Source: Burkholderia cepacia ATCC 25416
Lineage (GTDB): Bacteria; Pseudomonadota; Gammaproteobacteria; Burkholderiales; Burkholderiaceae
DNA: 64,000 nucleotides
Direction of reading: 5' to 3'
NCBI RefSeq assembly: GCF_001411495.1
Contig: NZ_CP012982.1
Coordinates: 62,001-126,000 of the forward strand
The notes under the pieces are model-generated. The model was not told the DNA's origin, made no database searches, and saw nothing but the letters and a program-made list of their open reading frames with translations. A program made the translations under genes and the position numbers. Positions 5,781-61,895 of the stretch are shown here, piece after piece. Numbering within the stretch: position 1 is the stretch's first letter; each line of letters opens with the position of its first letter.

Positions 5781-5835
5781 GCCCGGCGCAATGAGCAGTG
5801 ACGACAGCGATCCGGTTCGCCTTATCCAGCGCGGT

Positions 5836-6875: not shown

Positions 6876-6905
6876 CGCGCGCTCCAAACGGGGTTCTGGA
6901 CGGCG

Positions 6906-6949
6906 CAATTTTATTCGAAACAAACGAAAATCGCAATAAACGAAAATTG
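6906..6949 (-). promoter_or_regulatory. Candidate operator of the toxin-antitoxin operon
   Basis: Two identical decamers AAACGAAAAT lie at 6922-6931 and 6938-6947, 16 bp apart. An inverted pair, CAATTTT at 6906-6912 and AAAATTG at 6943-6949, brackets them. The stretch is far more AT-rich than its surroundings and sits just upstream of the antitoxin start, as expected for autoregulation. No binding evidence exists here. Confidence 0.45.
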
Positions 6950-6984
6950 ATATCGCCCTATATAAAGGGGTATGTCCGCTTCGT

Positions 6985-31726: not shown

Positions 31727-33142
31727 TCAAAAGGCATTCCGGCCGATGAACCCTCGCACGACCGTCAACAGGATGATCTTCATGTCGAACCAGAAGCTCC
31801 AGTTCTGCATGTAGAACAGGTCGAACTTGACGCGCGCCTCCATCGCCTCGACCTTGCGCGTCTCGCCGCGATAGCCGTTCACCTGTGCCCATCCGGTGAT
31901 GCCGGGCCGCACGCGGTAGCGGTACATGTAGCAGTCGATCAGTTGCCGGTAAAGGTCGTCGTGTTCGATCGCATGCGGACGCGGGCCGACGACCGACATC
32001 TGCCCGAACAGCACGTTGAAGAACTGCGGCAGCTCGTCGAGCGACGTGCGCCGCAGGAACGCGCCGACGCGCGTGATGCGCGCATCGTTGCGCGATGCCT
32101 GCCGCACGACGCCCGGTTGTGCGCGATGCACGCGCATCGTCCGGAACTTCAGGATGTCGAACTCCCGGCCGTCGACGCCCTTGCGGCGCTGCCTGAACAG
32201 CACGGGCCCCGGCGACGACAGCTTGACCGCGATCGCCAGCATCGACAGCAGCGGCAGCAGCGGAATCAGCACACCGAATGCGAACAGCCGGTCGAACGCG
32301 AACTTCGCCCACAGCTCCGGGGCCGAGCGCGGCGTGGTCGCGAGATTGATCGCCGGCATGCCGAGCACGTCGGTGGCCGAGCGATCGACCATCGCCATCT
32401 GCCGCACGTCGGGCAGCAGCCGCAATTCCACGAACTCGTCGCGCAACTCACGGACGATGCGCTGGATCCGCCACTCTTGCGACATCGGCAGCGTGAGCCA
32501 TACCTCGTCGATCTCGCCACCGCGAATCAGGTCGCGCAGTGCGTTCCAGTCGTCGATCACCGGCACGCCGCCGATGCCGCCGGCGGCAGCCGGCGCGTCG
32601 TCATCGAATACGCACGCCGCCACGAAAGGGCCCTGCGGCGCGAGCTGCATCCGCTCGACCGCGACACGCCCGTACGCCGTCGCACCGACCACCGCGACGC
32701 GGCGCTGCCGCGCGCGCGGGTCGTCGCGCGTCAGTGCCAGCGCCAGCAGCGCGGCACGGCCGAGCAGCAGCGCCGCGTCGCCGGCCAGCACCGTGCGTGC
32801 GATCCAGCGTGTCGTGATCGTGCCGCCGCGGTTCATGATCCACATCGCGGCGCCCACCGTCAGCACGCTCGCGCAGACGAGCGCCACGATCGTCTGCGTC
32901 AGCGCATGCGTGCCGCCTTGCGGTGCCACGCTGCCGCGCACGGTGCGCAGGTAGCGCGGCAGCAACGCCACGGTCAGCACGCACAGCAGCGCGATCGCGC
33001 CGCGCTGCGCGTCGGACAGCGCGCGCCACGCGAGGCCCGAGGCCGCCTGCGCCGCGAGCGCGCCGGCCAGCACGAGTACGGCGTCGGTCGCTGCGATCGC
33101 GGCACGCCGCATCGCATTCGTTCCACCGAACCTCGGCTGCAT
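31727..33142 (-). CDS. Undecaprenyl-phosphate sugar phosphotransferase (WcaJ/PssY type)
   Basis: A 471-residue inner-membrane enzyme that loads the first sugar-1-phosphate, probably glucose or galactose, on undecaprenyl phosphate to start the exopolysaccharide repeat unit. The N-terminal half has about four membrane helices and a Rossmann-like segment (VAVVGATAYGRVAVERM). The C-terminal catalytic part has the family signatures FRQRRKGVDGREFDILKFRTM, TSLDELPQFFNVL and MSVVGPRPHA. It starts 2 nt after the CRP/FNR-like gene, so both are one operon, probably read from the sigma-54 promoter at 34104-34119. MRRAAIAATDA, ten residues in, is an alternative start. Confidence 0.92.
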   Translation of the reverse strand: MQPRFGGTNAMRRAAIAATDAVLVLAGALAAQAASGLAWRALSDAQRGAIALLCVLTVALLPRYLRTVRGSVAPQGGTHALTQTIVALVCASVLTVGAAMWIMNRGGTITTRWIARTVLAGDAALLLGRAALLALALTRDDPRARQRRVAVVGATAYGRVAVERMQLAPQGPFVAACVFDDDAPAAAGGIGGVPVIDDWNALRDLIRGGEIDEVWLTLPMSQEWRIQRIVRELRDEFVELRLLPDVRQMAMVDRSATDVLGMPAINLATTPRSAPELWAKFAFDRLFAFGVLIPLLPLLSMLAIAVKLSSPGPVLFRQRRKGVDGREFDILKFRTMRVHRAQPGVVRQASRNDARITRVGAFLRRTSLDELPQFFNVLFGQMSVVGPRPHAIEHDDLYRQLIDCYMYRYRVRPGITGWAQVNGYRGETRKVEAMEARVKFDLFYMQNWSFWFDMKIILLTVVRGFIGRNAF

Positions 33143-33144
33143 CG

Positions 33145-33927
33145 TCACGCACCATGTGCGGGGAACCCGCGATGCCCGTCCGGCATGCGGGGCCGAACGG
33201 GTGTCGGCCTCGCCGTCTCGCGGGTGCCGAGCAGCCTGCGATAGTCGGCGCGAATCAGGTCGTAGCATTCGCACGCGTGATGTTCGAGGCCGTCGCGGTC
33301 GAGCACCGTGATGCGGCCGCGGCGCTGCCGGATCAGTCCGGCTTCCTGCAGGTTGCCGGCCGCTTCCGTCACGCCTTCGCGCCGCACGCCGAGCATGTTC
33401 GCGATCGTCTGCTGCGTGACCGCCAGTTCGTCGCCGTCGATGCGGTCGTGCGCGAGCAGCAGCCAGCGGCTGAGCTGCTCGCTGACCGAGTGATGCCGGT
33501 TGCACAGCGCGCTGCGCGAGATCTGCGCCATCGCGGCCTGGCAGTAGCTGAGCAGCAGCCGGTAGGTCGCCGGCGACCGCTCGAATTCGGCGCGCATCAC
33601 GCAGCTCGGCACACGATAGGCCATCCCGCCGATGCGAACCTCGATCCGGTGCGACGCCGCGGCGCCACCGACCAGCGTCGCCAGACCGACCACTCCCTCG
33701 CGGCCGACCTGCGCCACTTCGACCATCGCACCGTCCTCCATCAGGTGCTGCACCGACATCATCGACGTCGTCGGGAAATGCACGTGGCGCATCGGTTCGC
33801 CGACCCGCTCGAGCATCCCGGCCTTGATCCTGACCAGTTCGAGATGCGGTGCGATGGTGCGGATGCTGTCCTCCGGGAGGGCATCGAGGATGGCATTCGC
33901 CGAGTAGCTCGAGTGAAGATGAAGCAT
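33145..33927 (-). CDS. CRP/FNR-family regulator, BerA-like
   Basis: A 260-residue regulator: a cyclic-nucleotide-binding-like domain (about residues 15-140, with AQVGREGVVGLATLVGG) and a winged helix (LAVTQQTIANMLGVRREGVTEAAGNLQEAGLI). FNR iron-sulfur cysteines are not evident. In B. cenocepacia the c-di-GMP-responsive CRP/FNR protein BerA activates a biofilm exopolysaccharide and is itself made from an RpoN promoter. This gene fits that description, with a near-consensus sigma-54 promoter upstream and the sugar transferase directly downstream. The identification is inference, and the paralogue at 34851 is the rival candidate. ATG at 33927 is preceded by AGGGAT. Confidence 0.85.
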   Translation of the reverse strand: MLHLHSSYSANAILDALPEDSIRTIAPHLELVRIKAGMLERVGEPMRHVHFPTTSMMSVQHLMEDGAMVEVAQVGREGVVGLATLVGGAAASHRIEVRIGGMAYRVPSCVMRAEFERSPATYRLLLSYCQAAMAQISRSALCNRHHSVSEQLSRWLLLAHDRIDGDELAVTQQTIANMLGVRREGVTEAAGNLQEAGLIRQRRGRITVLDRDGLEHHACECYDLIRADYRRLLGTRETARPTPVRPRMPDGHRGFPAHGA

Positions 33928-34850
33928 GTCTGTATCCCTTTTATCGTTCGCGCCGCTTGCAGCCGCGGGCACGGAACTCGTTATCGCGATGCGCGCCCGG
34001 ACGTCGGCGGTGGTTGCGGCCCACAACCCTGATTCCGACCGACCCTCGGCTCATTGCCGCCGGATCGAATCGGCCGTCCCGTTTCGACACGCCAGCCCGA
34101 ATAAGCGATTTACGTGCCAAACCTTGTCCATCCTTAATATGTGAATCACGCCCGATTTAGATCGCCCGAATTACCGGCTCAAAACCAGAAAAAGCGTCTC
34201 ATTTCCGGACACTCTTCCGGGCGCCGGACACCGCGAGCTATTTGACTGATCATTTCCCCTGCATCGAACCAAGACAGATACGGCGGGGCTGCCAGGCTTG
34301 TCGCTCATATACTTACAGTCGATTTTCAATTGTTTCCGTGATGTGCCCTGCAGCACTTCGCTGCGGCATCATGCCTCGCACGGCCGTTTGAAACTGTCTC
34401 AAATTTGAATCGACACACTAAATTCAGGCTCTGTTACCTGACGCACATTTCGCTCGTACACAATTGATTTTTATGGATATTTTTGCGAGCTACATCCGAT
34501 TGTCAAATAATGTTCAATGTCCGCCCGGCACTTTCTCCGCACGAAGCACGGCATCGTTCGATTGATTCCCGTTCGACATCGAATGAATGCCAAACGTCCC
34601 ATTCGATTTCCGGATGATTAATTTCACTAAAACGAATCATTAAATCCGGATAACATTCCCACCCGCCAAAAATCGTCAAACTTTGTGAAATGACGCAATG
34701 TGCAATTGATCGAATTCAATGGCGTGTTAGCCTTTTCGCGAGTATCGTCACTCCATTTCTGACGAACACAAGTCCGCACGATCGTGCGAATTCCCCATTT
34801 TCGGGGTATTGCCGAGACGACGCGCGACCGCCACCCTACGAGGATGCGCC
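33928..34850. other. AT-rich intergenic region between two divergent CRP/FNR genes, 923 bp
   Basis: The longest low-GC stretch of the window. I find no protein-like frame. It carries the sigma-54 promoter at 34104-34119 (minus strand). The part from 34140 to 34800 is rich in A/T runs and is a likely target for nucleoid proteins or c-di-GMP regulators. A small RNA cannot be excluded. Confidence 0.6.
34104..34119 (-). promoter_or_regulatory. Sigma-54 (RpoN) promoter candidate for the CRP/FNR-sugar transferase operon
   Basis: Read on the minus strand the site is TGGCACG-TAAA-TCGCT, against the RpoN consensus TGGCACG-N4-TTGC(A/T). The -24 box is perfect, the GG-to-GC spacing of 10 nt is exact, and one base of the -12 box differs. 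Transcription would begin near 34093 and give a leader of about 165 nt before the ATG at 33927. Confidence 0.7.
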
Positions 34851-35633
34851 GTGACTCACCAGGCCCCTGACACCGTCGCGTACGCGAACGGCATGATCGA
34901 GCTTTCTCACAGCTTCGATGCGAACCGGTTTCTCGCGGCCGTCGACCGCGACGAGCTCGCGACATTCGCCCCCCACCTTCAACTTGTCCACCTGAAATCG
35001 GGGCAAGTGCTCTGCGAGCCCGGCGAAATGCTCGCCGCGGTCTACCTGCCCGTCACGACCGCGATTTCGCTGCAGTACGTGTCGTCCGGCGGCATGACGC
35101 TGGAAGTCGCGGAGATCGGCAGCGAGAGCGTGGCGTGCGACGACGTGATCGGCGGCAGCGGCCGGATGCCCTGCCGGGCAGTGGCCTGCCGCGACGGTTT
35201 CGCCTACCGGCTCGACCGGCGCGTGTTCGCCGCCGCGTTCGACGCGTCGCCGGTCATTCGCCATCTCGTGTTCGTCTGCGTGCGGCTGCTGATGGCGCAG
35301 GTCTCGCAGATCACGTTCTGCAGCCGTCATCACGTGCTCAAACATCAGTTATGCAGATGGTTCCTGCTCGCGTACGACCGGACCCGCAGCATCGAGATCC
35401 AGGTGACGCACAGCATGCTGGCGCAGATGCTCGGCGTGCGGCGCGAAACGGTCACCGATGCCGCCGGCGAGATCCAGAAGCTGGGCCTGATCCGGCAATA
35501 CCGGAGTTCGATCGAGCTCGCCGACCTCGACGGTCTCGAGAAGATGTCGTGCGGCTGCCGCGCGATCGTGCGTGACGAGATGAAGCGCATCCTGTCGGCC
35601 GACTCGGGTGTGCCGGCCGCTTCGCGCGCCTGA
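34851..35633 (+). CDS. CRP/FNR-family regulator, second paralogue
   Basis: A 260-residue regulator resembling the divergent gene at 33145-33927 along its length: shared order HLQLVHLKSGQV, LEVAEIGSESV, MAQVSQITFCSRHH, MLAQMLGVRRETVTDAAGEIQKLGLI. The N-terminal cyclic-nucleotide-type domain may bind c-di-GMP or be ligand-free. I chose GTG at 34851, 7 nt after ACGAGG; ATG at 34893 is an alternative that would shorten the N-terminus by 14 residues. Directly upstream of the carrier-protein operon, it may control it. Confidence 0.83.
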   Translation: MTHQAPDTVAYANGMIELSHSFDANRFLAAVDRDELATFAPHLQLVHLKSGQVLCEPGEMLAAVYLPVTTAISLQYVSSGGMTLEVAEIGSESVACDDVIGGSGRMPCRAVACRDGFAYRLDRRVFAAAFDASPVIRHLVFVCVRLLMAQVSQITFCSRHHVLKHQLCRWFLLAYDRTRSIEIQVTHSMLAQMLGVRRETVTDAAGEIQKLGLIRQYRSSIELADLDGLEKMSCGCRAIVRDEMKRILSADSGVPAASRA

Positions 35634-35822: not shown

Positions 35823-36074
35823 GTGAAAAACGAAATCAGAACCATCCTCAAGCACGTCGCCCACCTCGAAGCCGCGATCGATTCGATCGGCGACGGGGAC
35901 GACCTCTACGAAGCGGGCCTCTCGTCGCTCGATACGATCCAGCTGATGCTCGCGATCGAGAAGCAATTCAACATCGAGATTCCCGACGAGATGCTGAACC
36001 GCAACCTGTTCCGCAGCATCGACGCGCTCGCGGACACGATCGCCACGCTGCAACGCACCGAGCATTCCGCATGA
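35823..36074 (+). CDS. Acyl/aminoacyl carrier protein
   Basis: An 83-residue acidic four-helix carrier protein. The phosphopantetheine site is EAGLSSLDTIQLML, with Ser35 as attachment residue; the second helix continues AIEKQFNIEIPDEML as in ACPs. GTG at 35823 is chosen because GGAG stands 5 nt before it and the product has normal ACP length; an earlier in-frame ATG at 35775 gives an unlikely Pro/Arg-rich extension. It is first of five genes joined by overlapping stops and starts. It is the expected partner of the aa:carrier ligase two genes on. Confidence 0.88.
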   Translation: MKNEIRTILKHVAHLEAAIDSIGDGDDLYEAGLSSLDTIQLMLAIEKQFNIEIPDEMLNRNLFRSIDALADTIATLQRTEHSA

Positions 36075-37267
36075 GCGCGCTGCTTCCCGAACTCGCGACC
36101 GACAGCGATGCGCGTCGGCTCGACGAGGCCGCGCATGCCGTCGCGCAGATCGCCGCGCAACACGCGGACGCGGTCGACCGCGACGCGCGCTGCCCCGTCG
36201 AGGCGATCGAGGCGATGCGCGCGCGCCGCCTGCTCGGCGCAATGGTGCCGACCCATCTCGGCGGCGCTGGCGCGTCGCTGGAGGACATCGCGTCGGCCTG
36301 TTCGATTCTCGGCCAGGCCTGCGCGTCGTCGGCCATGGTGTTCGCGATGCACCAGATCCAGGTCGCCTGCATCGTCGACCACGCGGTCGACCAGGGCTGG
36401 CACAAGCTGTTCCTGCAGCAACTCGTGCGCCACCAGTGGCTGCTCGCATCGGCTACGTCGGAAAACGGCGTCGGCGGCAACCTGCGCGCGAGCCAGTGCG
36501 CGCTCGAAACCGACAACGGCGAGTTCCGGCTGCGCAAATCCGCGCCGACGATCTCGTACGGCGACTATGCGGACGGCATCCTCGCGACCGCACGACGCGA
36601 TGCGGACGCTCCGGCTTCCGAGCAGGTGCTCGTCACGCTGCTGCGCGACGGCTACACGCTCACGCGCCGCGGCGAATGGGACACGCTCGGGATGCGCGGC
36701 ACCTGCAGCAACGGTTTCGAGCTCGACGCGCAAGGCGCCGCCGTCCAGTGCCTGCCGGTGCCGTTCGCGAAGATCGCCGAGGAAACGATGGTGCCGGTGT
36801 CGCACATCCTGTGGGCCGCGGTCTGGATCGGCGTGGCCGGCGACGCGTTCCATCGCGCGCACCAGTTCTTCCGCGCGCAGGCACGCCAGACCGACGGGGC
36901 ACCGTCGCCCGCGTCGCGACGCATCGCCGAATCGCTCGCGCTGATGCAGGCGATGCAGGCCCGCGTCGACAACGTGCTGCGCCTCCATGCGAATGCGACC
37001 GCGCGCTCGTGGTCGGCCGGGATGGCCTGGGCCGCCGAGATCAACACGCTGAAGACCTACGTGTCGACGACCGCGCTGGAAGTCGCGCACCAGGCCATGA
37101 TGATCTGCGGGATGGCCGGCTACAAGCAAGGCACGCCGTTCAGCATCGGCCGCCACATTCGCGACCTGCATGCGGCGCCGCTGATGATCAGCAACGACCG
37201 CATTGCCACCAACACCTCGAACCTGCTGCTCGCGCTGCGTCCTGCGACGCTGGAGAAACATACGTGA
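36071..37267 (+). CDS. Acyl-CoA dehydrogenase-like flavoprotein (type 2/DszC-like C-terminus)
   Basis: A 398-residue flavoprotein. The helical N-terminus, VPTHLGGAGASLEDI and the beta-domain start LASATSENGVGGNLRA are acyl-CoA dehydrogenase-like. The usual C-terminal catalytic YEG glutamate is not seen; the end reads GMAGYKQGTPFSIGRHIRDLHAAPLM, as in the type 2 branch that includes flavin monooxygenases. It could therefore dehydrogenate or N-/C-oxidise a residue held on the carrier protein. ATG overlaps the carrier stop (ATGA). Cytosolic; FAD or reduced FMN cofactor expected. Confidence 0.82.
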   Translation: MSALLPELATDSDARRLDEAAHAVAQIAAQHADAVDRDARCPVEAIEAMRARRLLGAMVPTHLGGAGASLEDIASACSILGQACASSAMVFAMHQIQVACIVDHAVDQGWHKLFLQQLVRHQWLLASATSENGVGGNLRASQCALETDNGEFRLRKSAPTISYGDYADGILATARRDADAPASEQVLVTLLRDGYTLTRRGEWDTLGMRGTCSNGFELDAQGAAVQCLPVPFAKIAEETMVPVSHILWAAVWIGVAGDAFHRAHQFFRAQARQTDGAPSPASRRIAESLALMQAMQARVDNVLRLHANATARSWSAGMAWAAEINTLKTYVSTTALEVAHQAMMICGMAGYKQGTPFSIGRHIRDLHAAPLMISNDRIATNTSNLLLALRPATLEKHT

Positions 37268-38238
37268 ACGATCGCCTTGCCGTGCCCTCCGCCGCCTCCG
37301 CTCCCGCCGACGCACCGCTCGACCGCGCGGGCGTCAACCCGCTGCGCGACGAACTGATCGACGCGGGCCTGCTGGTCTCGACCGGCATTCAAGGCCTGTT
37401 CGGCCGCAGCGAACGGTTCGAGCGCGTCGTGGAAGCGCTCGACGCGTTCGTCACGCGCATCGGCGCCGACCAGCAGGCCGAAGTGCTGCGCTTTCCGCCG
37501 GCCATGAGCCGCATCGAGTTCGAGCGCAGCGAATACATGAAGAGCTTCCCGCAGCTCGCGGGCAGCGTGCATGCGTTCTGCGGCGACGAACGCCAGCACC
37601 AGCGCGTACTGCAGTGCCTCGATCGCGGCGACGACTGGACGGAAAGCCAGAAGCCGACCTATGTCGTGATGACGCCGGCCGCGTGCTACCCCGTCTACCC
37701 TGTCGTGGCGCGCGCGGGCGCGCTGCCGGCCGACGGCCGGATCGTCGACGTATTCTCGTACTGCTTCCGCCACGAGCCGTCGCTCGATCCGACCCGCATG
37801 CAGTTGTTCCGGATGCGCGAATACGTGCGGATCGGCACGCCCGAGCAGATCGTCTCGTTCCGCGAGACCTGGATCGAACGCGGCACGCGGATGATCGAGG
37901 CGCTGCGCCTGCCCAACGCGATCGACCTCGCGAACGACCCGTTCTTCGGGCGCGGCGGCAAGATCGTCGCGAACAGCCAGCGCGAGCAGAACCTGAAGTT
38001 CGAGCTGCTGATCCCGATCGAGCACGACGATCGCCAGACCGCCTGCCTGAGCTTCAATTACCACATGGACCATTTCGGGCTGCTGTGGAACATCCGCACC
38101 GCGACGGACGAGGTCGCGCACACGGGCTGCGTCGGCTTCGGCCTCGAACGGCTCACGCTCGCGCTGTTCCGCCACCACGGCTTCGACATCGATGCATGGC
38201 CGCGTGAAGTCCGCGACGTTCTGTGGGGCACGCGATGA
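37264..38238 (+). CDS. Amino acid:[carrier protein] ligase (SerRS-like)
   Basis: A 324-residue class II aminoacyl-tRNA-synthetase-like protein without a tRNA-binding arm. The family studied in Bradyrhizobium and Agrobacterium adenylates small amino acids (glycine or alanine) and transfers them to the phosphopantetheine of a dedicated carrier protein. The zinc ligands appear as Cys141 (TPAACYPVYP), Glu186 (FRMREYVRIG) and Cys289 (HTGCVGFGLERL); their spacing of 45 and 103 residues equals that I recall for Bll0957 (131, 176, 279). Class II motif 2 is seen in FRMREY and motif 3 in GFGLERLTLALF. GTG start overlaps the previous stop (GTGA). Confidence 0.9.
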   Translation: MNDRLAVPSAASAPADAPLDRAGVNPLRDELIDAGLLVSTGIQGLFGRSERFERVVEALDAFVTRIGADQQAEVLRFPPAMSRIEFERSEYMKSFPQLAGSVHAFCGDERQHQRVLQCLDRGDDWTESQKPTYVVMTPAACYPVYPVVARAGALPADGRIVDVFSYCFRHEPSLDPTRMQLFRMREYVRIGTPEQIVSFRETWIERGTRMIEALRLPNAIDLANDPFFGRGGKIVANSQREQNLKFELLIPIEHDDRQTACLSFNYHMDHFGLLWNIRTATDEVAHTGCVGFGLERLTLALFRHHGFDIDAWPREVRDVLWGTR

Positions 38239-39293
38239 GATTCGTGTCCCGCGACGGCGAAGACGCGTCGTTCGAGGATGTGCGTCACCGTGCGCGCCAC
38301 TACCGGCCACATCCGCTGCACAGCCAGGAGATGGTCTGGAAGCAGACCAACTGCTACGTCGACATGTGGCTCGAAGTGCTCCGGTGGTGGGGCTTCAATC
38401 CGTACGCGGCGTTGCCGTTCACGATCGCGCTCGATTTCGAGGGCGACCAGTTCACGTTCTTCAAGTTTCCGCACGACGAACTGGAGCGGCTGTACGGCAT
38501 CGTCGTGCAGGAGCACTCGATCTACGAACCGCTCGACCGGCACATCGAGACGCAGGTCGCGCGCGGTCACCTGATGATCGTCGAAGTCGACGCGTGGTTC
38601 CTGCCCGATACGCGCGGCAGCAGCTACCGCACGCAGCACACGAAGACGACGATCGGCATCGATGCGATCGACCGCGCGAATCGCCAGATCGGCTACTTCC
38701 ACAACAGCGGTTATTACGTGGCCGAGGATTTCGACTACGACGGGCTCGTCGGCGGCAGCTCGCCGATGACGCTGCCACCCTATGTCGAATGCGCGAAACG
38801 GCGGTTTGCGCCGCTCGACGAACGCACGCTGTGCGAGACGTCGCTCGCCGCGCTGCAGCGCCACCTGCGGCGCCTGCCGGTGGTCGACCCGATCGCCGCG
38901 TTCCGGCGGCAGTTGCAGACCGACGCGCGGACGCTCGCCGATTCGCCGCTCGAGCGCTTTCATGCGTACTCGTTCAACTCGGTGCGGCAGCTCGGCGCGA
39001 ACTTCGAGCTGTTCGGCCATTACGCGCGCTGGCTGCAGGCCAGCGGCTGCGTCGGGCCGTTCGCCGAGATCCGCGCCGCGTGCGACCGTATCGCGTCCGA
39101 AGCGATGGTGCTGGAATTCCGGCTCGCACGCGCCTGCGCGCGCGGCAAGGAAGAACGCGGCGATTCGACGCTCGAAGCGATCGAGGCCGCCTACGCGGAC
39201 GTGGTCGCGTGCGCGCGGCAGATCGGCTTGCCGCTGCGGCACATGACGCCCGTGCACAGCGACACGGCGGCACCCGTGCCGGTCATGCGGTGA
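38235..39293 (+). CDS. DUF1839 family protein
   Basis: A 352-residue protein of a family I recognise as DUF1839, of unknown biochemistry. Notable residues are Cys40 in KQTNCYVDMWLE, Asp119 and Asp125 in VDAWFLPDT, His135 in YRTQHTKTTIGI and the stretch GYFHNSGYY. A Cys followed by Asp/His in this order resembles papain-like or BtrH-like acyltransferases, which take an amino acid from a carrier protein to an amine. This is my inference, from residue order and from its place after the aa:carrier ligase. No signal peptide. ATG overlaps the ligase stop (ATGA). Confidence 0.8.
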   Translation: MRFVSRDGEDASFEDVRHRARHYRPHPLHSQEMVWKQTNCYVDMWLEVLRWWGFNPYAALPFTIALDFEGDQFTFFKFPHDELERLYGIVVQEHSIYEPLDRHIETQVARGHLMIVEVDAWFLPDTRGSSYRTQHTKTTIGIDAIDRANRQIGYFHNSGYYVAEDFDYDGLVGGSSPMTLPPYVECAKRRFAPLDERTLCETSLAALQRHLRRLPVVDPIAAFRRQLQTDARTLADSPLERFHAYSFNSVRQLGANFELFGHYARWLQASGCVGPFAEIRAACDRIASEAMVLEFRLARACARGKEERGDSTLEAIEAAYADVVACARQIGLPLRHMTPVHSDTAAPVPVMR

Positions 39294-41770
39294 CGCGCAC
39301 GCGCGCCCTGCCCGCGTGGTCGATGCTGGCGACGGCCGCGGGGGCCGCGCGGGAACCGCGCGATCTCCCGGCCGCCGGCAACGGCTGGATTCCGGCGGCC
39401 GTGCCCGGTACCGTGGCACAGTCGCTCGCGCTCGCCGGCCGGCTCGACGAAGCCGTATCGCTCGACGAACGCGACCACTGGTACCGGATCGAACTGCGCG
39501 GACACGGGCCGCGCGTGCTGCGCTTCCACGGCCTCGCGACGCTCGCGCAGGCGTGGCTCGACGACACGCCGATCCTCCGCTCCGACAGCATGTTCGTCGC
39601 GCACGACGTGCCCGTGTCGCTCGACGGGTCGCACCGGCTGACCCTCTGTTTCCGCGCGCTCGCCCCGCACCTGCGCGACGCGCGCGCGCCGCGCCGCGCG
39701 CGCTGGCGCACGCGCCTCGCGGAGCCGGCAGCCCTGCGCACGATCCGCACTTCGCTGTTCGGGCACATGCCGGGCTGGTTTCCGCCGCATGTGCCGACCG
39801 GCCCGTGGCGGCCCGTGGACGTGCTCGATCCGGCCGACGGGCCCGTTCTCGCCGATTGCAACCTGCACGCGCGCATCGAAGGCGACACCGGCTGGCTCGA
39901 CGCGGACCTGACGTTCGCCGCGCCGCTGCCCGACGCGCTCGCGGCACGGCTGTCGTGCGGCCAGCACCACGCCACGCTCGAACGTGCGGGCCCCGATCGC
40001 CTGCGCGCAAGCGTCGCGGTGCCCAACGTGTGCCGCTGGTGGCCGCATACGCACGGCGAGCCGGTGCTGTACGACATCGCGCTGCATATCGGCGCCGAGC
40101 GTCGGCCGCTCGGCGCGACGGGCTTTCGCACGATCGAGGTCGACCCCGGCGCCGACGGCAAGGGCTTCGGGCTGCGCGTCAACGGCGTGCCCGTGTTCGC
40201 GCGCGGCGCGTGCTGGAGCAGTGCCGCGCCGCTCGCGCTGCACGCGGACGACGCCACCTACGCCCGCCTGCTCGGGCTCGCGCGCGACGCCGGCTTCAAC
40301 ATGATCCGCGTCGGCGGCACGATGACCTACGAGGCCGATGCCTTTCATGCGTGGTGCGACCGGCTCGGCCTGCTGGTCTGGCAGGATTTCATGTTCGCGA
40401 ACTTCGACTACGCGCTCGACGACCCCGCGTTCGCGGACAACGTCGATCGCGAAGCCCGACAGTTCCTCTCGCGTCACGGCGCATCGCCGTCGCTTGCCGT
40501 CCTGTGCGGCGGCAGCGAGATCGCGCAGCAGGCCGCGATGTCCGGGCTCGGGCCGAAGCAGCGCTTCCTCGAGCTCACCGCCGACCGGCTGGCCGGCCAT
40601 GCGGCCGCATGCCGGCCCGACGTCCCGTACGTGCCCGATTCGCCCGACGGCGGCGTGCTGCCGTTCATGCCGCGTGAACGCGTGTCGCACTATTACGGTG
40701 TCGGTGCCTACCTGCGCCCGCTCGATGACGCGCGCCGCGCGGACGTGCGCTTCGCGAGCGAATGCCTCGCGTTCTCGAACGTGCCATGCGACGCGACGCT
40801 CGCCGAGCTCGGCTGGCCCGGCGTGCACGAGCCGCGCTGGAAAGCCGCCGTGCCGCGCGACCCCGGCACGTCGTGGGATTTCGAGGACATTCGCGACCAC
40901 TATCTGCAGACGCTGTACGACGTCGTGCCCGACCGGTTGCGGCGCGAGGATCCGGCGCGCTACTTCGAACTGTCGCGCGCAGTGGTCGCCGACGTGATGC
41001 GCGAGACGTTTTCCGAATGGCGGCGCACCGGCTCGCGCTGCGCCGGCGCGCTGGTCTGGCAGTTCCAGGACGTGATGCCGGGTGCGGGCTGGGGCGTAAT
41101 CGACGCCGCGCACCGGCCGAAATCGGCGTGGCATGCGCTGCGCCAGGTGCTGCAACCCGTACAGGTGCTGCTCGTCGACGAAGGCCTGAACGGGCTCGAC
41201 GTGCATGTCGTCAACGAGCGCCCCGCGCCGCTGTCGGCGGCGCTCGAACTGGTCGCGCTGCGCGACGGCCGCACGGCGGTTGCACGGGCCGGCTGCCCGG
41301 TTCGGATCGCCGCGCACGACACGGTGCGGATCGGTTCGGCCGAGCTGCTCGGCCGCTTCTTCGACTGGACCTACGCGTACCGCTTCGGGCCCTGCGAACA
41401 CGACACCGTCGTCGCGACCCTGCGCGGCGACGACGGCACCCTGCTGTCGCAGGCATTCCATTTCCCGTCCCGTACGCATCCGGCGGTGCTGGCGCGCCGC
41501 GAACTCGGGCTGGAGGCGTGTGTATCGCGCACCGGCGACACGTGGCACGTCGACATCGATACACGGCACGTCGCACGCCATGTGCAGATCGATGCGCCGG
41601 GATTCGTGCCGCGCGACGACTGGTTCCATCTCGCGCCCGGCACGCCGGCGCGGGTGGTGCTCGTTCCGCTTGGAACGGCCGGGAAGAATGGGGCCGCGGA
41701 TGGGCCGCCGGCCGTGGAAATCCGCGCCGTGAACGCCGCGCGCGCGGTGCGCGCCACGCAGGCCGGTTGA
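39290..41770 (+). CDS. GH2-family glycoside hydrolase (beta-mannosidase-like)
   Basis: An 826-residue protein with GH2 architecture: an N-terminal jelly-roll (VPGTVAQSLALAG, DHWYRIELRG), Ig-like parts, a TIM barrel from about residue 290 (GLRVNGVPVFARGACW) and C-terminal beta domains. The nucleophile is probably Glu491 in FASECLAFSNVP, like FxSEFGxQSxP of beta-mannosidases. The acid/base is probably Glu410 in LCGGSEIAQ, where the family normally has NGNNE. No signal peptide, so it acts in the cytosol or by an unknown route. GTG start overlaps the DUF1839 stop (GTGA). The substrate may be the modified sugar or the polysaccharide precursor. Confidence 0.85.
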   Translation: MTRTRALPAWSMLATAAGAAREPRDLPAAGNGWIPAAVPGTVAQSLALAGRLDEAVSLDERDHWYRIELRGHGPRVLRFHGLATLAQAWLDDTPILRSDSMFVAHDVPVSLDGSHRLTLCFRALAPHLRDARAPRRARWRTRLAEPAALRTIRTSLFGHMPGWFPPHVPTGPWRPVDVLDPADGPVLADCNLHARIEGDTGWLDADLTFAAPLPDALAARLSCGQHHATLERAGPDRLRASVAVPNVCRWWPHTHGEPVLYDIALHIGAERRPLGATGFRTIEVDPGADGKGFGLRVNGVPVFARGACWSSAAPLALHADDATYARLLGLARDAGFNMIRVGGTMTYEADAFHAWCDRLGLLVWQDFMFANFDYALDDPAFADNVDREARQFLSRHGASPSLAVLCGGSEIAQQAAMSGLGPKQRFLELTADRLAGHAAACRPDVPYVPDSPDGGVLPFMPRERVSHYYGVGAYLRPLDDARRADVRFASECLAFSNVPCDATLAELGWPGVHEPRWKAAVPRDPGTSWDFEDIRDHYLQTLYDVVPDRLRREDPARYFELSRAVVADVMRETFSEWRRTGSRCAGALVWQFQDVMPGAGWGVIDAAHRPKSAWHALRQVLQPVQVLLVDEGLNGLDVHVVNERPAPLSAALELVALRDGRTAVARAGCPVRIAAHDTVRIGSAELLGRFFDWTYAYRFGPCEHDTVVATLRGDDGTLLSQAFHFPSRTHPAVLARRELGLEACVSRTGDTWHVDIDTRHVARHVQIDAPGFVPRDDWFHLAPGTPARVVLVPLGTAGKNGAADGPPAVEIRAVNAARAVRATQAG

Positions 41771-41815: not shown

Positions 41816-43207
41816 TCAGTCGGACGAGCCCGTCCCGCGCGGCCGCTCGATCCCGTATGCCTCCATCCAGCGGTACAGCGTCGCGCGCGACACCCCGAGC
41901 TCCCGCGCCGAAGCCGCGACGCGCCCGCGCGTACGCAGCAGCGCCGTTTCGATTGCCTCGCGCTCGATCGACTTGCGGATGTCGGCCACCGACGGCGACG
42001 CCGCATCGAGACAGTATTCGAGCTCGAGATCCTGGGCGGTGATCAGGCGTCCTTCCGTCATCACGACCGCGCGGCGCACGCGGTTGATCAGTTCGCGAAC
42101 GTTGCCGGGCCAGTCGTGCTTGTACAGCGCCGTGATCGCATCCGTCGAGAAGCCGCGTACGCGATGGCGCGCGTCGCCGCGGAAGCGCTCGAGCATGTGA
42201 TGCGCGAGCAGCTCGATGTCCTTGCCGCGCGCGCGCAGCGGCGGCTGGTCGATGCGCATCACGCACAGCCGGTGGAACAGGTCGGCCCGGAAGCGCCCTT
42301 CCTCCATCGCGTCGCGCAGGTCGACGTGCGTCGCCGACACGATCCTGACATCGACCGGCACCGGATCGCTGCCGCCAAGGCGATGGATTGCACGCTCCTG
42401 CAGAAAACGCAGCAAGCTTGCCTGGCTCTCGTGCGGCAGGTCGCCGATCTCGTCGAGCAGCAGCGTGCCGCCGTTCGCCGCTTCGACATAGCCGATCTTG
42501 CGCGCGTTCGCGCCCGTAAACGCGCCGCGCTCGTAGCCGAACAGTTCGGATTGCAGCAGATGTGGCGGAATGGCGCCGCAGTTGACCGCGACGAACGGGC
42601 CGTTGCGGCGCTCCGAATGGCGATGGATCGCGACGGCCGTCAATTCCTTGCCGGTTCCCGTTTCGCCGAACACGAACACCGGTGCGTCCGTGCGCGCGAA
42701 GCGCCGCACCGTATCGAACAGCCGCAGCATCGCGCTGCAGGTGCCGACGATGCCTTTCTCTTCGGATTCGAGCCGTTCGCGGTCGCGCGCGAACAGGCAT
42801 TCCATGCCGTACGCATGGCCAACCGTATCGGCGATCCGCTGGTGCGACGCCGGCAACGTGACGTAATCGAAGCAATAGTCGCGCAACAGCGCGCGCACGT
42901 TCGGCGAAGCCGTCTGGCCGACGTCGACGAGTGCGACCCAGACGACGTCGCGCATCGACGCGCAGGTCGACGCAATGCTGCCGATCGCGTCGGCGTGGCC
43001 GCCGCTCAGGTCGAGGATGCCGCAGGTGATCTCGCCGGATGTGTCGCGCAGCTCACTCGCCTGCGCGACGATCGACACTTTCCAGTCGCGTCGCGACAAT
43101 TCCTTTCGCAGCATGACGGACGGCGACTGCGTCCAGTAAATCAGCGGACGCTGCCCGTTACCACTCCCCGCGCCGGCGCTCTTATCGCGCGTTATTGGCA
43201 TATTCAT
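41816..43207 (-). CDS. Sigma-54-dependent activator, VpsR/NtrC type (BerB-like)
   Basis: A 463-residue enhancer-binding protein. Residues 20-135 form a receiver-like domain whose acidic pocket is incomplete (CGILDLSG at 62-69), as in c-di-GMP-responsive VpsR. The AAA+ core has Walker A GETGTGKE (181-188), the sigma-54-contacting GAFTGA (228-233) and Walker B GGTLLLDEIGD. The C-terminus has a Fis-type helix-turn-helix (ARELGVSRATLYRWMEAYGI). In B. cenocepacia an RpoN activator, BerB, switches on berA; this protein could play that part at the promoter 34104-34119. That link is inference. Confidence 0.9.
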   Translation of the reverse strand: MNMPITRDKSAGAGSGNGQRPLIYWTQSPSVMLRKELSRRDWKVSIVAQASELRDTSGEITCGILDLSGGHADAIGSIASTCASMRDVVWVALVDVGQTASPNVRALLRDYCFDYVTLPASHQRIADTVGHAYGMECLFARDRERLESEEKGIVGTCSAMLRLFDTVRRFARTDAPVFVFGETGTGKELTAVAIHRHSERRNGPFVAVNCGAIPPHLLQSELFGYERGAFTGANARKIGYVEAANGGTLLLDEIGDLPHESQASLLRFLQERAIHRLGGSDPVPVDVRIVSATHVDLRDAMEEGRFRADLFHRLCVMRIDQPPLRARGKDIELLAHHMLERFRGDARHRVRGFSTDAITALYKHDWPGNVRELINRVRRAVVMTEGRLITAQDLELEYCLDAASPSVADIRKSIEREAIETALLRTRGRVAASARELGVSRATLYRWMEAYGIERPRGTGSSD

Positions 43208-44645: not shown

Positions 44646-45230
44646 ATGGAATGGCATTGTTGTGAATTCGAACATCTGGGCGCCGTCGATCTCTATGCAA
44701 TCCTGCGCGCGCGCAACGCCGTGCTGGTGGTCGAGGACGCGCACACGCATCTCGACATCGACGGCAAGGACGCGGGCGCGCTGCATGTCTATGCAACCGT
44801 ACGCGACGGCGACACGATGGAAGTCGCGGCCTATGCACGCATCCTGCCCGGCGACGACATCGACCCGGACGCCGTGATCGACAAGGTGCTGACGAGCGAG
44901 CGCCGGCGCGACGACGCTACGCTCGAGCAGCTGATCGGGCGCGCCCTCACCGCCGCGCAGGCGGCATGGCCCGACGCCGCGGTGCGCACGCACGTCCCGG
45001 CACCGCGCCAGGCGTTCTACAAGCGTTTCGGATTTCGCAAGGCCTACGGCCCGTATCTCGAACAGGGTGCGCCGTTCGTCGGCCTGGTGCGGCCCAGCGA
45101 CCGCGCAGCAGGCGCACTGCGCGGCCTGCTGCACCGGGTCGTTTCGGCACACCGGTCGCGCGACGACGACGCACGTGCCGACAGCCGTACACACAACCGG
45201 CTGCCCGCCGACACCGGAGCCAATCGATGA
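44646..45230 (+). CDS. ElaA-like GNAT N-acetyltransferase
   Basis: A 194-residue acyltransferase of the GNAT fold. The N-terminus EWHCCEFEHLGAVDLYAILRAR and VVEDAHTHLDIDGKD resemble ElaA, and FYKRFGFRKAYGPYLEQGAPFVGL is the usual C-terminal motif. The last 45 residues are a charged extension. Its stop overlaps the start of the mannose-nucleotide gene (ATGA), so the two are coupled. It may acetylate a sugar amine or a protein; the position suggests a link with polysaccharide precursors, but acceptor specificity cannot be read. Confidence 0.82.
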   Translation: MEWHCCEFEHLGAVDLYAILRARNAVLVVEDAHTHLDIDGKDAGALHVYATVRDGDTMEVAAYARILPGDDIDPDAVIDKVLTSERRRDDATLEQLIGRALTAAQAAWPDAAVRTHVPAPRQAFYKRFGFRKAYGPYLEQGAPFVGLVRPSDRAAGALRGLLHRVVSAHRSRDDDARADSRTHNRLPADTGANR

Positions 45231-46798
45231 CCCGCACCCTTCGCCCGGTTCCCGATCCCGACCTGCCGCGCATCCTGCCGGTGATTCTCGCCGGCGGCTC
45301 CGGCACCCGGCTGTGGCCGCTGTCGCGCGAGCAGTATCCGAAGCAGTTGATCGAGCTGATTTCGAACGAATCGCCGCTGTCGGCGACAGCGCGCCGCCTG
45401 AACGGCATCGCGAACGCGTCGCTCGGCGACACGTTGCTGCTGGTCTGCGGCGAACAGCATCGCGTCATGAGTGCCGCACAGGTGGTCGGTCGCGCGGCGC
45501 CCGCCCGCATCCTGCTCGAACCGGCCGCGCGCAACACCGCGCCCGCGCTGACGCTCGCGGCACTCGACGCGAGCCAGCTCGCGGACGATCCCGTGCTCGC
45601 GGTGATGCCGGCCGATCACGTGATCACCGACGTCGGCGCGTTCCAGGACGCGATCGCGCGCGCGGCGCGCTACGCGCAGGAAGGGGCGATCGTCACGCTC
45701 GGCGTGCTGCCCCGACGCGCGGAGACGGGCTACGGCTACATCCAGGTCGGCGAGCCGCGCACGGGCCGCCACGGTGGCCAGGGCGGCTACGCGATCGGAC
45801 GCTTCGTCGAAAAACCCGATGCGACACTGGCCGAGCGCTACCTGCAATCCGGCGATTACTGGTGGAACAGCGGGATTTACGTGACGCGCGCATCGGTCTG
45901 GCTGAAGGCGATCGGCGCACTCGCACCGGACATCCATGCGGCCTGCGAAACCGCGTGGCGCGCGGGCATCCCCGAGGATCCGTTCTTCCGGATCGATGCG
46001 GCGGCCTTCGACACGTGCCCGTCGGACTCGATCGACTACGCGGTGATGGAACGGCTCGCGGAACGCGGCGAACTCGGCATCGAAGGCATCGTGGTGCCGC
46101 TCGCGGCCGGCTGGTCGGATGTCGGCACCTGGGATGCGATCTGGGAAATCATGCCGAAGGACGATCACGGCAACGTCGCGCGCGGCCCGATCGTGTTCGA
46201 GGACACGCAGGACAGCCTCGTGCGTTCGGAGGGCCGCCTGATCGCGTGCGTCGGGATGAAGGACGTCGTCGTGATCGAGACGCCCGATGCCGTGCTGGTC
46301 GCGAACAAGCACGACGTGCAGCGCGTGAAGAACATCGTCGAGCGCCTGAAGACCGACCGGCGCCCGCAGGCACGCGAGCACCGCAAGGTGCAGCGGCCGT
46401 GGGGGCACTACGATTCGATCGATCTCGGCCAGCGCTTCCAGGTGAAGCGGATCGTCGTCGAGCCCGGCAAGCGGCTGTCGCTTCAGATGCACTATCACCG
46501 CGCCGAGCACTGGATCGTCGTGCGCGGCACCGCGAAGGTGACGCGTGGCAGCGAGACGTTCCTGCTGTGCGAGAACGAGTCGACGTACATCGCGGTCGGC
46601 GAAGTGCATCGCCTCGAGAATCCCGGCCGGATTCCGCTCGAAATCATCGAAGTGCAATCGGGCGACTATCTCGGCGAGGACGATATCGTTCGGTTCGACG
46701 ATCAGTATGGGCGGGCGGTCGAGGCACGGGCGGCGCAATCGGTTCCGATTGCGTCACAGAAAACGCACGTGCCAACGGCCGCACCGGACGTCGCTTGA
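45227..46798 (+). CDS. manC: Mannose-1-phosphate guanylyltransferase/mannose-6-phosphate isomerase
   Basis: A 523-residue bifunctional enzyme making GDP-mannose for the exopolysaccharide. The N-terminal nucleotidyltransferase has VILAGGSGTRLWPLSREQYPK (residues about 18-38) and FVEKPD. The C-terminal type II phosphomannose isomerase cupin starts at RPWGHYDSID (about 390) and has KRLSLQMHYHRAEHW, with metal-binding His residues. Length is slightly above the usual 470-490 because of short extensions at both ends. ATG at 45227 overlaps the acetyltransferase stop. Homologous in function to BceA, CpsB and AlgA. Confidence 0.94.
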   Translation: MTRTLRPVPDPDLPRILPVILAGGSGTRLWPLSREQYPKQLIELISNESPLSATARRLNGIANASLGDTLLLVCGEQHRVMSAAQVVGRAAPARILLEPAARNTAPALTLAALDASQLADDPVLAVMPADHVITDVGAFQDAIARAARYAQEGAIVTLGVLPRRAETGYGYIQVGEPRTGRHGGQGGYAIGRFVEKPDATLAERYLQSGDYWWNSGIYVTRASVWLKAIGALAPDIHAACETAWRAGIPEDPFFRIDAAAFDTCPSDSIDYAVMERLAERGELGIEGIVVPLAAGWSDVGTWDAIWEIMPKDDHGNVARGPIVFEDTQDSLVRSEGRLIACVGMKDVVVIETPDAVLVANKHDVQRVKNIVERLKTDRRPQAREHRKVQRPWGHYDSIDLGQRFQVKRIVVEPGKRLSLQMHYHRAEHWIVVRGTAKVTRGSETFLLCENESTYIAVGEVHRLENPGRIPLEIIEVQSGDYLGEDDIVRFDDQYGRAVEARAAQSVPIASQKTHVPTAAPDVA

Positions 46799-55070: not shown

Positions 55071-56324
55071 TCAACCCGAACGCACCGATATATCGACGAC
55101 GCCGACCCGTTCGCGACGGAGGACATACGCAAGCGCGGCAGCGACGGCCGTTTCCGTGATCAACACCGCGATAGCCGCACCCCGCTCCGCAAACAGCATG
55201 GCAAGGGGCGGCAGCAACGTCACATTCAGCATGCCGGATGAAATCAGGATGATGCTGAAGGCGCGCTTCATGCCGAGTGGCAGCATCGTTTGAACGCCGA
55301 ACAGATCCGTCATGCATGCCATGAACGGCACGAGCGCCAGGCAATGCAGTACGCCAATCGTCGGCGCGAATGAGCTGCCATACAGAATCCGGACAGCGAT
55401 CGGCGCGCACGCGTAGATAACGGCCGACATGGCCAGGACGAGCGCCCCCTGCATGACGATCAGCTTGCGCAGGAACGCGAATGCCTCGTCGCGCGCGTGA
55501 TGCATCAGATAGGTAATGTGTGGATAGGTCGATGCCCGAAGCGGCTGCAACAGGCCGACCGCTGCCCGGATCAGTTTGTCACCTGCAGCGAAATAGCCGG
55601 CGGCGACGTTACCCGAGACGATACTCAGCAGCACGGTATTGGTCGACGCGTAGAACGAGATCGACGTCGACGCGAGGAACACCTGAAAACCGCCTTGCAG
55701 CGCAGTAACGATATCGGCAAACCGCACGCGTACCCCTTCGATCTCGCGCTGAAAGAAGAGATAGGCAAGCAAGGTGATCCCGCACAGCAACGGTACCGCC
55801 GCGTTGATCGCGACGGCGGGCAGGAGATCGTCCGGCGTGCGAACCCACAGGAAGAAGGCGGCGACACTGAGCGCACGGTACACGACTACCGTGACGCTGT
55901 ACACGCTCAACCGCTGGATTCCCTGGAAATACCAGCCTGGTGTCAGCGCGGCACCGATCGCCATCCCGAACCCGATGAGCAGTGCCGTGCGCTCCGCCGC
56001 GAAATGCGGAATCAGCATCGTTAGCGCGATGAGCACGGCGAAGCCGGCAACGGTAATCAGCCACTGGGCGCAAACCGTCGTCCAGAAGATGCGTGATCGC
56101 TCCCCCCTGTCCTTCGCGAGCGCAACACGCGGCGTTGCAGTCAGGTCGAAACTGTAATTCGCGAGGTTGATGAAGTACGTTGCAACCGCAAGCACGAACG
56201 ACAGCGTTCCGTATTGTTGCGGGCCGAGCACGCGCGTCAGCAGCGGCAACGTGACGAGCGGTATGACATAGGTCGAGATTTGCAGCGAAAACAACAACGC
56301 AAAGTTTTTTCGGACGGCGGTCAT
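55071..56324 (-). CDS. wzx: Polysaccharide repeat-unit flippase (Wzx-like)
   Basis: A 417-residue MOP-superfamily membrane protein with about 12 helices. It starts VRKNFALLFSLQISTYVIPLVTLPLLTRVLGPQQYG, the classic Wzx N-terminus with a PLLTRVLG loop, followed by FVLAVATYFINLANYSFDL. It would flip the undecaprenyl-linked repeat to the periplasm. The ATG at 56324 is preceded by GGAAAG; an earlier ATG adds 17 unrelated residues. It starts 38 bp after the glycosyltransferase stop, probably in the same operon, and is separated from wzy by 253 bp. Confidence 0.92.
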   Translation of the reverse strand: MTAVRKNFALLFSLQISTYVIPLVTLPLLTRVLGPQQYGTLSFVLAVATYFINLANYSFDLTATPRVALAKDRGERSRIFWTTVCAQWLITVAGFAVLIALTMLIPHFAAERTALLIGFGMAIGAALTPGWYFQGIQRLSVYSVTVVVYRALSVAAFFLWVRTPDDLLPAVAINAAVPLLCGITLLAYLFFQREIEGVRVRFADIVTALQGGFQVFLASTSISFYASTNTVLLSIVSGNVAAGYFAAGDKLIRAAVGLLQPLRASTYPHITYLMHHARDEAFAFLRKLIVMQGALVLAMSAVIYACAPIAVRILYGSSFAPTIGVLHCLALVPFMACMTDLFGVQTMLPLGMKRAFSIILISSGMLNVTLLPPLAMLFAERGAAIAVLITETAVAAALAYVLRRERVGVVDISVRSG

Positions 56325-56362
56325 CGTGCTTTCCGGGCTGAATATGAACAGTGCACCGACCG

Positions 56363-61372: not shown

Positions 61373-61895
61373 CGCGTCTTTCCAAACTGTGCTGGAACCC
61401 GCCGACATGACGGATTGCCGCATTACGATTGCCGGTGCGACTCGCATTGCATTGCCGCGCGGCCCTTGCATCGCACGTCGGCCGCACGTCGATCCGTACA
61501 GGTCATCATGAGCGATACCATGTCGCGCTCGTCTGCAGCCGGTCGGCCGGCGCACCCCATGCCACCTGCATCGCAGCGTCAATCGTCGCCTGATATGCCC
61601 CCGCGCACCACGCGCCGACACCGCCTTGCCGGTCGTGCCAGAGTACTCACGCGCTGATACCTGATTGAACACTGTCCGGCACCGCGTGTATGTGAGCAAC
61701 CTCACCGAAAGCCAATCTTCATACAAGCATCCGATCGCCCCAGACGATCACGCCCCGCTACGCTGACCACACCACCGGAAATCGTCGCCCGGCCACCGCA
61801 AGCTCGGTCGCCGGATCCGTCGTTGCAAAAAAAGCGCACCGATCGGTGCGCGTTGCCGTGGACGGCCGAGTCACAAAGTCACCATGACGGTCTTG
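61373..61895. other. Intergenic region upstream of wza, 523 bp
   Basis: No supported gene. The right end holds the terminator of the beta-helix gene (61827-61851). The rest is the presumed promoter region of wza. I found no good sigma-54 site; a TGGCACG near 61637 on the minus strand lacks a -12 box at the right distance. Confidence 0.5.
61827..61851 (-). terminator. Rho-independent terminator after the beta-helix gene
   Basis: An 8-bp perfect stem (GCGCACCG with CGGTGCGC, 61834-61851), followed on the minus strand by seven T. It lies 45 nt after the stop of the gene that ends at 61896. Confidence 0.9.

Follow-up and report, generated by a model that had tools for sequence, protein, structure and literature searches.

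The stretch of 64,000 nucleotides from Burkholderia cepacia ATCC 25416 analysed here, the window (contig NZ_CP012982.1, positions 62,001 to 126,000), is part of contig 2 of a genome of 8.6 Mb in 4 contigs and holds an operon of five overlapping genes for a carrier protein, a flavoprotein, an amino acid:[carrier protein] ligase, a DUF1839 protein and a glycoside hydrolase family 2 (GH2) enzyme. Together with a tandem alpha/beta hydrolase encoded elsewhere in the window, they make up a real, widely conserved and apparently unstudied six-protein pathway. We propose that this cytoplasmic carrier pathway transfers an acyl group derived from an amino acid to an acceptor that contains a sugar, a reading to which we give a little less than an even chance. 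The first half of the pathway is clear, namely an amino acid on the carrier and a cysteine transferase; the acceptor, the oxidation and the role of the GH2 enzyme form a more conjectural second half.

All five genes lie on the plus strand, and the four start/stop overlaps that a sequence-only reading of this DNA had described are present between them. The first gene (35823..36074) starts with GTG and encodes a carrier protein of 83 residues (PF00550, PP-binding; PRK07081) with a phosphopantetheine site at Ser35 in the motif GLSSLD. ATGA at 36071-36074 joins it to the flavoprotein gene (36071..37267; 398 residues), whose product has the fold of acyl-CoA dehydrogenases (ACADs) without their usual catalytic Glu, as assigned by Pfam and relatives in the PDB. 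GTGA at 37264-37267 leads into the ligase gene (37264..38238; 324 residues), the product of which is a homologue of the seryl-tRNA synthetase core (PRK07080; Pfam tRNA-synt_2b). ATGA at 38235-38238 follows, with the gene for the DUF1839 protein (38235..39293; 352 residues; Pfam DUF1839 at 6e-127), a papain-like, putative carrier-dependent acyl or amide transferase with Cys40, Thr139 and His156. GTGA at 39290-39293 then opens the gene for a beta-mannosidase-like GH2 enzyme (39290..41770; 826 residues; Glyco_hydro_2_N2) with conserved E410 and E491. The sixth member, the tandem hydrolase, is encoded on the minus strand (57978..59798; 606 residues), about 16 kb from the five-gene set, and carries Cys394, Asp519 and His553 in its second half.

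A profile of 20 aligned DUF1839 sequences was compared with genome contigs and gave at least 554 confirmed relatives, the best 80 of which were kept as named loci. Tallies are six-frame matches at score thresholds set for this analysis, because simple GC-bias gene calls missed genes, such as the DUF1839 gene in L028. Within the fetched stretches, all five genes are present in 70 of these best 80 loci and in 15 of 17 additional loci outside them; the predicted co-occurrence of the five families is thus seen in 85 loci holding the full set. Order and strand are the same in 82 of the 85, and in the other three (L067, L079, L125) the in-operon DUF1839 gene is in order and the mismatch is a second DUF1839 copy chosen by the script. 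The best 80 loci are not independent, since they are top matches and mostly from Burkholderia and Paraburkholderia; the window DUF1839 protein is 97-98% identical to the copies of Burkholderia contaminans and B. aenigmatica. Among the ten incomplete named loci, the contig ends past DUF1839 in L010 and L015, GH2 is absent beside the set in L069, and DUF1839 is alone or with a partial set in seven (L030, L043, L046, L047, L071, L076, L083). Some of these seven have GH2 pieces (L043, L047 and L083 only) or changed triads (L046, C-V-H; L071, C-I-H; L076, G-T-H), as if the set were decaying. The seven lone or partial DUF1839 genes adjoin BerA-like genes. The two incomplete additional loci are L123, which represents a second copy of DUF1839, and L126, which begins within the set at a contig end.

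In a sample of Pseudomonadota, DUF1839 was found in 16 of 398 genomes, and in a class-level sample in 3 of 274, two of them new. The 17 additional stretches comprise 15 from 14 of the 16 genomes (the window's own and G583 excluded, G515 used twice) and two from the class-level sample. Eleven of the 16 belong to the same phylum but to a different class, and are therefore probably alphaproteobacteria; among the named loci, the set occurs in this class in Azospirillum (L070, L081) and in a bin of Reyranellaceae (L082). In a genus sample the ligase is present in 34 of 37 genomes, the window's own included.

The earlier proposal that an amino acid is activated on the carrier agrees with the family membership of the ligase and probably holds. 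The ligase scores 557.6 bits (cut-off 357) against PRK07080, "amino acid--[acyl-carrier-protein] ligase", and belongs to the same family as Bll0957, for which, with its carrier, structures are in the PDB (3mey, 4h2w). Its residues C141, E186 and C289, invariant in 12 of 12 sequences, align with C131, E176 and C279, which we take to be the Zn ligands of Bll0957. The carrier scores 146.6 bits (cut-off 72) against NCBIfam PRK07081; its Ser35 is invariant among 77 aligned sequences, and its GTG start agrees with the aligned orthologues, which begin at the same M/V-K. Although structures of amino acid:[carrier protein] ligases have been available for years, these enzymes are not, to our knowledge, assigned to a pathway. 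Literature searches on the ligases, on exosortases with phosphopantetheine and on aminoacyl carriers with exopolysaccharide yielded nothing of use. Bll0957 was considered as a direct counterpart of the window pathway and rejected, as the nearly identical ligase of L159 lies in a fetched stretch without DUF1839 and GH2. L159, and L158 and L160, which are arranged like it, have neither gene in the fetched 18 kb; the window ligase is of the DUF1839-linked kind. Among the 398 genomes the ligase is above cut-off in 28, the 16 with DUF1839 and 12 others; in nine of nine fetched from the latter it is found with the flavoprotein gene, with a carrier match in six of the nine. The ligase and the flavoprotein thus occur together without DUF1839, so loading and flavoprotein would form a module common to two pathways. 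In three ligase-flavoprotein loci without DUF1839 (L161, L162, L163), the stretch also contains a gene of the Wzz or Wzc type.

The likely transfer enzyme is suggested by its fold. The DUF1839 fold resembles those of CcbD, CtaG and AziU3 over nearly the whole chain, at about 12% identity to CcbD, and the DUF1839 sequence profile gave no significant match in the PDB (best E 0.21). Like CcbD/LmbD, and also CtaG and AziU3, it combines this fold with an N-terminal Cys and a carrier protein partner. CcbD forms an amide, and CtaG reportedly does likewise. On this analogy, and with a conserved Cys, the transfer to an amine or hydroxyl ascribed to DUF1839 in the sequence-only reading appears probable. 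The first 20 aligned sequences all have Cys40, Thr139 and His156. Invariance of Cys40 in all DUF1839 proteins was rejected, as it fails in 5 of 104 (103 reading frames above 150 bits from the fetched loci, plus the window's). The triad is C-T-H in 93 of the 104 and C-S-H in four; Cys40, on the N-terminal helix, is kept in 99 and missing in the lone copy L076 and four in-operon copies. The latter come from four two-copy genomes (L067, L079, L124, L125) and read R-C-H in three and Q-C-H in one; in all four genomes, a second copy (L067, L079, L123, L125; L123 and L124 are both G515) stands beside ManC and retains C-T-H. This pattern fits a catalytic Cys40, probably the nucleophile, which a complete set loses only where another, intact copy sits among the polysaccharide genes. 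The in-operon copy without the Cys may stay on as a partner, reminiscent of the AziU3/U2 pair.

The triad order of DUF1839, C(T/S)H according to the part of PMC10318531 available, differs from the Cys-His-Glu of CcbD; therefore, we do not class DUF1839 as a member of that group but only as working alike. The same excerpt describes BtrH of the butirosin pathway as papain-like, with a donor bound to an acyl carrier protein and an aminoglycoside acceptor (PMC10318531). DUF1839 and BtrH are both papain-like; BtrH belongs to another Pfam family (BtrH_N), and membership of DUF1839 was rejected since there is no such match. BtrH is also absent among the listed rows of the fold search, which has no bearing on kinship.

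For the flavoprotein, the ACAD fold and domains are present (Acyl-CoA_dh_N, _1 and _2 above the Pfam cut-off, _M under it). The catalytic Glu of short-chain acyl-CoA dehydrogenases (SCADs), which we take to lie two residues past the GY motif, is found in none of 74 aligned flavoproteins, the position being Asn in 49, Gln in 15, His in 9 and Tyr in 1. This means that "acyl-CoA dehydrogenase" had to be rejected as a working name. An Asp or Glu follows 1-3 residues after this site in 22 of the 74, and a Glu occurs at some position within 238-258 in 12; for these proteins, a displaced catalytic base may exist. Isovaleryl-type enzymes have an alternative catalytic Glu in helix G. The relatives in the PDB are nitrososynthases (DnmZ, 3mxl), KijD3, the DszC/TdsC monooxygenases and ACADs, with no clear winner: DnmZ ranks first by single sequence, ACADs by profile, and TdsC/DszC tie with SCAD by fold. 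The proposed oxidation of the carrier-bound amino acid therefore keeps its flavoprotein and loses the usual ACAD base, and the step itself is conjectural. The nitrososynthases and KijD3 among these relatives, the latter solved with an amino sugar nucleotide, and the resemblance of DUF1839 to CcbD would also suit a different product: a small, diffusible aminoacyl glycoside akin to lincosamides or mycothiol, in which an amino acid forms an amide with an amino sugar glycoside. In that case the set would be only co-regulated with polysaccharide genes or adjacent to them. We consider this somewhat unlikely, for reasons of gene neighbourhood given below.

The GH2 enzyme is matched by Pfam in its N-terminal domain only and aligns along most of its length to beta-mannosidases such as 5n6u and 2vjx. 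Residues E410 and E491, at the positions of acid/base and nucleophile in these enzymes, are conserved in 70 of 70 sequences; the GNNE motif around the acid/base of beta-mannosidases is absent and replaced by GGSE in all 70, so the specificity is probably altered. No signal peptide is evident by eye, and the enzyme, if active, would thus be cytoplasmic, as a small-glycoside product would also have it.

The set extends beyond the five genes, as the tandem hydrolase belongs to it. Two alpha/beta hydrolase domains are fused in this protein, matching TIGR03101 and TIGR03100, the exosortase A system hydrolases 2 and 1; against TIGR03100 and TIGR03101, in this order, the halves reach 96.1 and 80.2 bits, below both cut-offs (168.45, 202.75). 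In a search with an alignment of eight sequences, full-length matches above 400 bits were found in 17 of the 398 genomes, that is, in all 16 with DUF1839 and in G581. Weaker, mostly partial alpha/beta hydrolase matches raise the total to 284, and the co-occurrence therefore rests on the score gap (414 versus 151 bits); at most three candidates were scored per genome, so a weakly ranked hydrolase could be missed. Within families, kinship being ignored, genomes with and without DUF1839 have the hydrolase in 6 of 6 versus 0 of 10 (f210), 4 of 4 versus 0 of 8 (f197) and 5 of 5 versus 1 of 6 (f1), the negatives of f210 and f197 being family genomes listed with a weaker match. In G369 and G452, the hydrolase is on other contigs than the set. 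Among 35 aligned hydrolases, the second half has Cys394 in all 35 and Asp519 and His553 in 34 each, and the nucleophile position of the first half is occupied by Arg or Gly. In G581, the only sampled genome with the hydrolase and no DUF1839, the hydrolase gene, as called, overlaps a carrier protein gene and follows that of an AMP-binding ligase; Wzc and a glycosyltransferase are encoded in the same stretch. The hydrolase thus goes with carrier proteins and glycan export. In L171, a tandem hydrolase frame (4206-7637) has about 570 extra N-terminal residues that match neither a Pfam family nor the Wzx part of L111.

By annotation, the window hydrolase is the counterpart of Bcam1334 of the Bep exopolysaccharide cluster, for which quality control is proposed in the part of PMC3584217 available; likewise, PMC10318531 proposes in its excerpt, from context, acyl-CoA-dependent glycan processing at the cell wall by DUF1839. 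It follows that DUF1839, GH2 and the hydrolase could act on misassembled glycan while the carrier system serves another purpose. We regard such a division of labour as very unlikely, because carrier, flavoprotein and ligase precede DUF1839 and GH2 in a single order in 85 loci, and DUF1839 has the fold of synthases that depend on a carrier.

For the carrier pathway we propose the following steps. First, the ligase would activate a small amino acid, with glycine the most likely one, and load the carrier, a step well supported by the family, in which glycine is reportedly the substrate of Bll0957. Second, the flavoprotein would oxidise the carrier-bound aminoacyl group or the acceptor amine; oxygenase or oxidase chemistry is more likely here than a classical dehydrogenation. 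Third, DUF1839 would accept the acyl group on Cys40 and deliver it to an amine or hydroxyl, much as CcbD acylates an amino sugar. Fourth, the GH2-like enzyme may cleave or move a glycosidic bond of the product in the cytoplasm. Fifth, the tandem Cys hydrolase, for which a genetic link was found, would pass on or proofread the group at a lipid-linked glycan near Wzx. In Burkholderia, the pathway would serve an exopolysaccharide controlled by cyclic di-GMP (c-di-GMP).

The last point comes from the genes on both sides of the operon. A berA orthologue of the CRP/FNR type (PF13545) lies at 33145..33927 on the minus strand; it is identified by a match (34197..34216, minus strand, 1 mismatch), where zero chance matches are expected, to the published primer bounding the berA promoter fragment on which PMC5552954, in the part available, reports a BerB footprint. 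A sigma-54-like site, TGGCACGTAAATCGCT, lies upstream of berA (34104..34119, minus strand, 1 mismatch); the window shows no enrichment of sites of this kind. On the other side, a berB orthologue (41816..43207, minus strand) is assigned by its VpsR, sigma-54 activator and Fis-type domains and by its place. In B. cenocepacia, BerA is c-di-GMP responsive, and the excerpt of PMC9684580 gives berB as BCAM1342, berA as BCAM1349 and the Bep cluster as BCAM1330-1341. From its position between berA and berB, the operon would therefore be the counterpart of BCAM1343-1347; among open-licence full texts, no paper was found for BCAM1343 to BCAM1348. In Burkholderia, the operon is thus placed for co-regulation with a c-di-GMP-controlled exopolysaccharide. 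Directly upstream of the operon is another CRP/FNR-type gene (34851..35633, plus strand, PF13545), distinct from berA and retained in Burkholderia loci.

The exopolysaccharide surroundings seen in the sequence-only reading are real, as the window holds Wza, Wzc, Wzx, ManC, glycosyltransferases and a phosphoglycosyltransferase. Taking as exopolysaccharide markers BerA-like, WbaP-like, Wzc, Wza or ManC genes at thresholds set for this analysis, at least one lies within 10 kb in 63 of the 70 named five-gene loci, and at least two in 62. In Paraburkholderia xenovorans LB400 (L051), for example, all five genes adjoin BerA-like, phosphoglycosyltransferase and Wzc genes. All five sampled genomes of the window's taxonomic family (G000, G583, G509, G515, G587) have a Bac_transf or Poly_export gene no more than 10 kb from the set, and the window's own genome has just 3 Bac_transf and 4 Poly_export matches. 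Outside this family, the picture is different: no such gene was found within 20 kb on the contig in any of 13 genomes (11 of other classes and 2 of the same class, from 18 compared including the window's; G452, G525, G071 and G203 have a contig end closer than 20 kb on one side). The marker-free named loci are seven (L024, L027, L054, L062, L070, L081, L082), all with the tandem hydrolase adjoining GH2, against 9 of the 63 with a marker. That the set always sits in an exopolysaccharide locus was therefore rejected; the claimed proximity to polysaccharide genes stands for most named loci and for the window's family and is weakened by the genomes outside it.

The distance from phosphoglycosyltransferase and Wza genes outside the family, like the lack of an amino sugar in Bep described below, favours the small-glycoside product; the near-constant exopolysaccharide markers of the named loci and the ManC neighbour of the intact second DUF1839 in 4 of 4 two-copy genomes speak against it. 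So do three loci in which a Wzx-type flippase is either part of the hydrolase chain (L111, L113) or encoded in front of the hydrolase (L112, which also has GT2 and Wzz-type genes). Together with L117, where it lies beside GH2, a Wzx-type gene is found in the fetched stretch of at least 4 of the 13 outside-family genomes, with part of the genes scanned. Furthermore, no dedicated exporter common to the loci was noticed, in a comparison that was not a systematic search. It has also to be considered that the set is a self-contained cassette for the catabolism of an amino acid or amine, beside polysaccharide genes by chance since a Burkholderiaceae ancestor. The neighbours in Azospirillum, Reyranellaceae and another alphaproteobacterium, which look unrelated as far as scanned, agree with this; three arrangements with BerA-like, phosphoglycosyltransferase and Wzc genes across Burkholderia, Paraburkholderia and Cupriavidus do not, nor does the co-occurrence of the hydrolase inside three families, and we find such a cassette highly improbable.

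If the acceptor is a polysaccharide, an oxidised aminoacyl group would decorate the lipid-linked repeat units of the biofilm polysaccharide through DUF1839 and the flippase-linked hydrolase, with a c-di-GMP switch through BerA/BerB, and the decoration would be lost in the alkaline extraction of Bep; we hold this to be possible rather than probable. The published Bep polysaccharide of a BerA-overproducing strain consists of Gal, Glc and Man at 2:1:1, with no amino sugar and, in the text consulted, no substituent, after extraction in 0.3 M NaOH for 3 h and measurement in NaOD. Such treatment should strip off esters but leave amides in place. Any substituent would then be base-labile or minor, or the product is something else, and the small-molecule reading thus keeps weight. 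The NaOH extraction and the place of the operon between berA and berB could also mean that DUF1839 esterifies hydroxyls of the Bep repeat unit directly, with the other genes tuning an ester that is lost in extraction. This is improbable in our view, because the fold relative CcbD makes an amide (CtaG is said to as well), and the same set is found far from phosphoglycosyltransferase and Wza genes.

Several observations weigh against the six-protein pathway or its polysaccharide end. Besides the Bep composition and the 13 outside-family genomes, the hits of a Bep transposon screen of about 6000 mutants were, in the excerpt at hand, in Bcam1330-1341 only. The tandem hydrolase is in the fetched 10 kb flanks of 9 of the 63 marker-bearing named five-gene loci. 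The seven lone or partial named loci retain DUF1839 without the ligase, and the Bll0957-like ligase of L159 has a weakly matching carrier and a flavoprotein as neighbours, while its fetched stretch contains none of DUF1839, GH2 and the hydrolase. The swapped triad at so low an identity to CcbD and the Cys-less in-operon copies of the two-copy genomes belong here as well, and with the usual ACAD base absent, plain dehydrogenation with a loss of 2 Da is less likely. The decoration of a biofilm polysaccharide put forward in the sequence-only reading therefore stays plausible from its setting in the window's family and is weakened by the outside-family loci and the Bep structure.

A related idea is known from the Dlt D-alanylation of teichoic acids, which likewise brings a carrier-bound amino acid onto a surface polymer. 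Dlt uses a DltA-type AMP-binding ligase, whereas the window ligase is of the tRNA-synt_2b class and resembles aminoacyl-tRNA synthetases; Dlt membrane proteins reportedly act in D-alanylation, and a papain-like transferase is proposed instead in the window set. If the acceptor is a polysaccharide, the set would be a Gram-negative parallel to teichoic acid D-alanylation with different enzymes. The DUF1839-linked branch of the ligases gains a defined six-protein partner set and, by fold, a likely transfer enzyme, and in Burkholderia this set lies next to regulators through which c-di-GMP controls a polysaccharide of the biofilm matrix. A long-open question on these ligases thus comes within reach of experiments on a small number of purified proteins and single-gene deletions.

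The polysaccharide genes of the window include a phosphoglycosyltransferase (Bac_transf; 31727..33505, minus strand, start uncertain), a ManC-type mannose-1-phosphate guanylyltransferase (45227..46798, plus strand), and, on the minus strand, a Wzc-type protein (49917..52166), a Wzx-type flippase (55071..56375) and a Wza-type export protein (60188..61726). Within the Bep-type cluster, 52212-53738 on the minus strand encodes a GH5-like protein; no such gene is in the J2315 table, and the cluster may therefore vary between species while the five-gene set stays. Adjoining the Wza gene, the product of 61896-63959 (minus strand) has a C-terminal domain of the phage-depolymerase type (PF25692, 28.1 bits). 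In four f210 loci (L111, L113, L115, L116) two genes stand upstream of the set, directly next to the carrier gene in L111, L113 and L115; one of them, as scanned in L111, encodes a radical SAM protein resembling lysine-2,3-aminomutase (TIGR03822, 582 bits).

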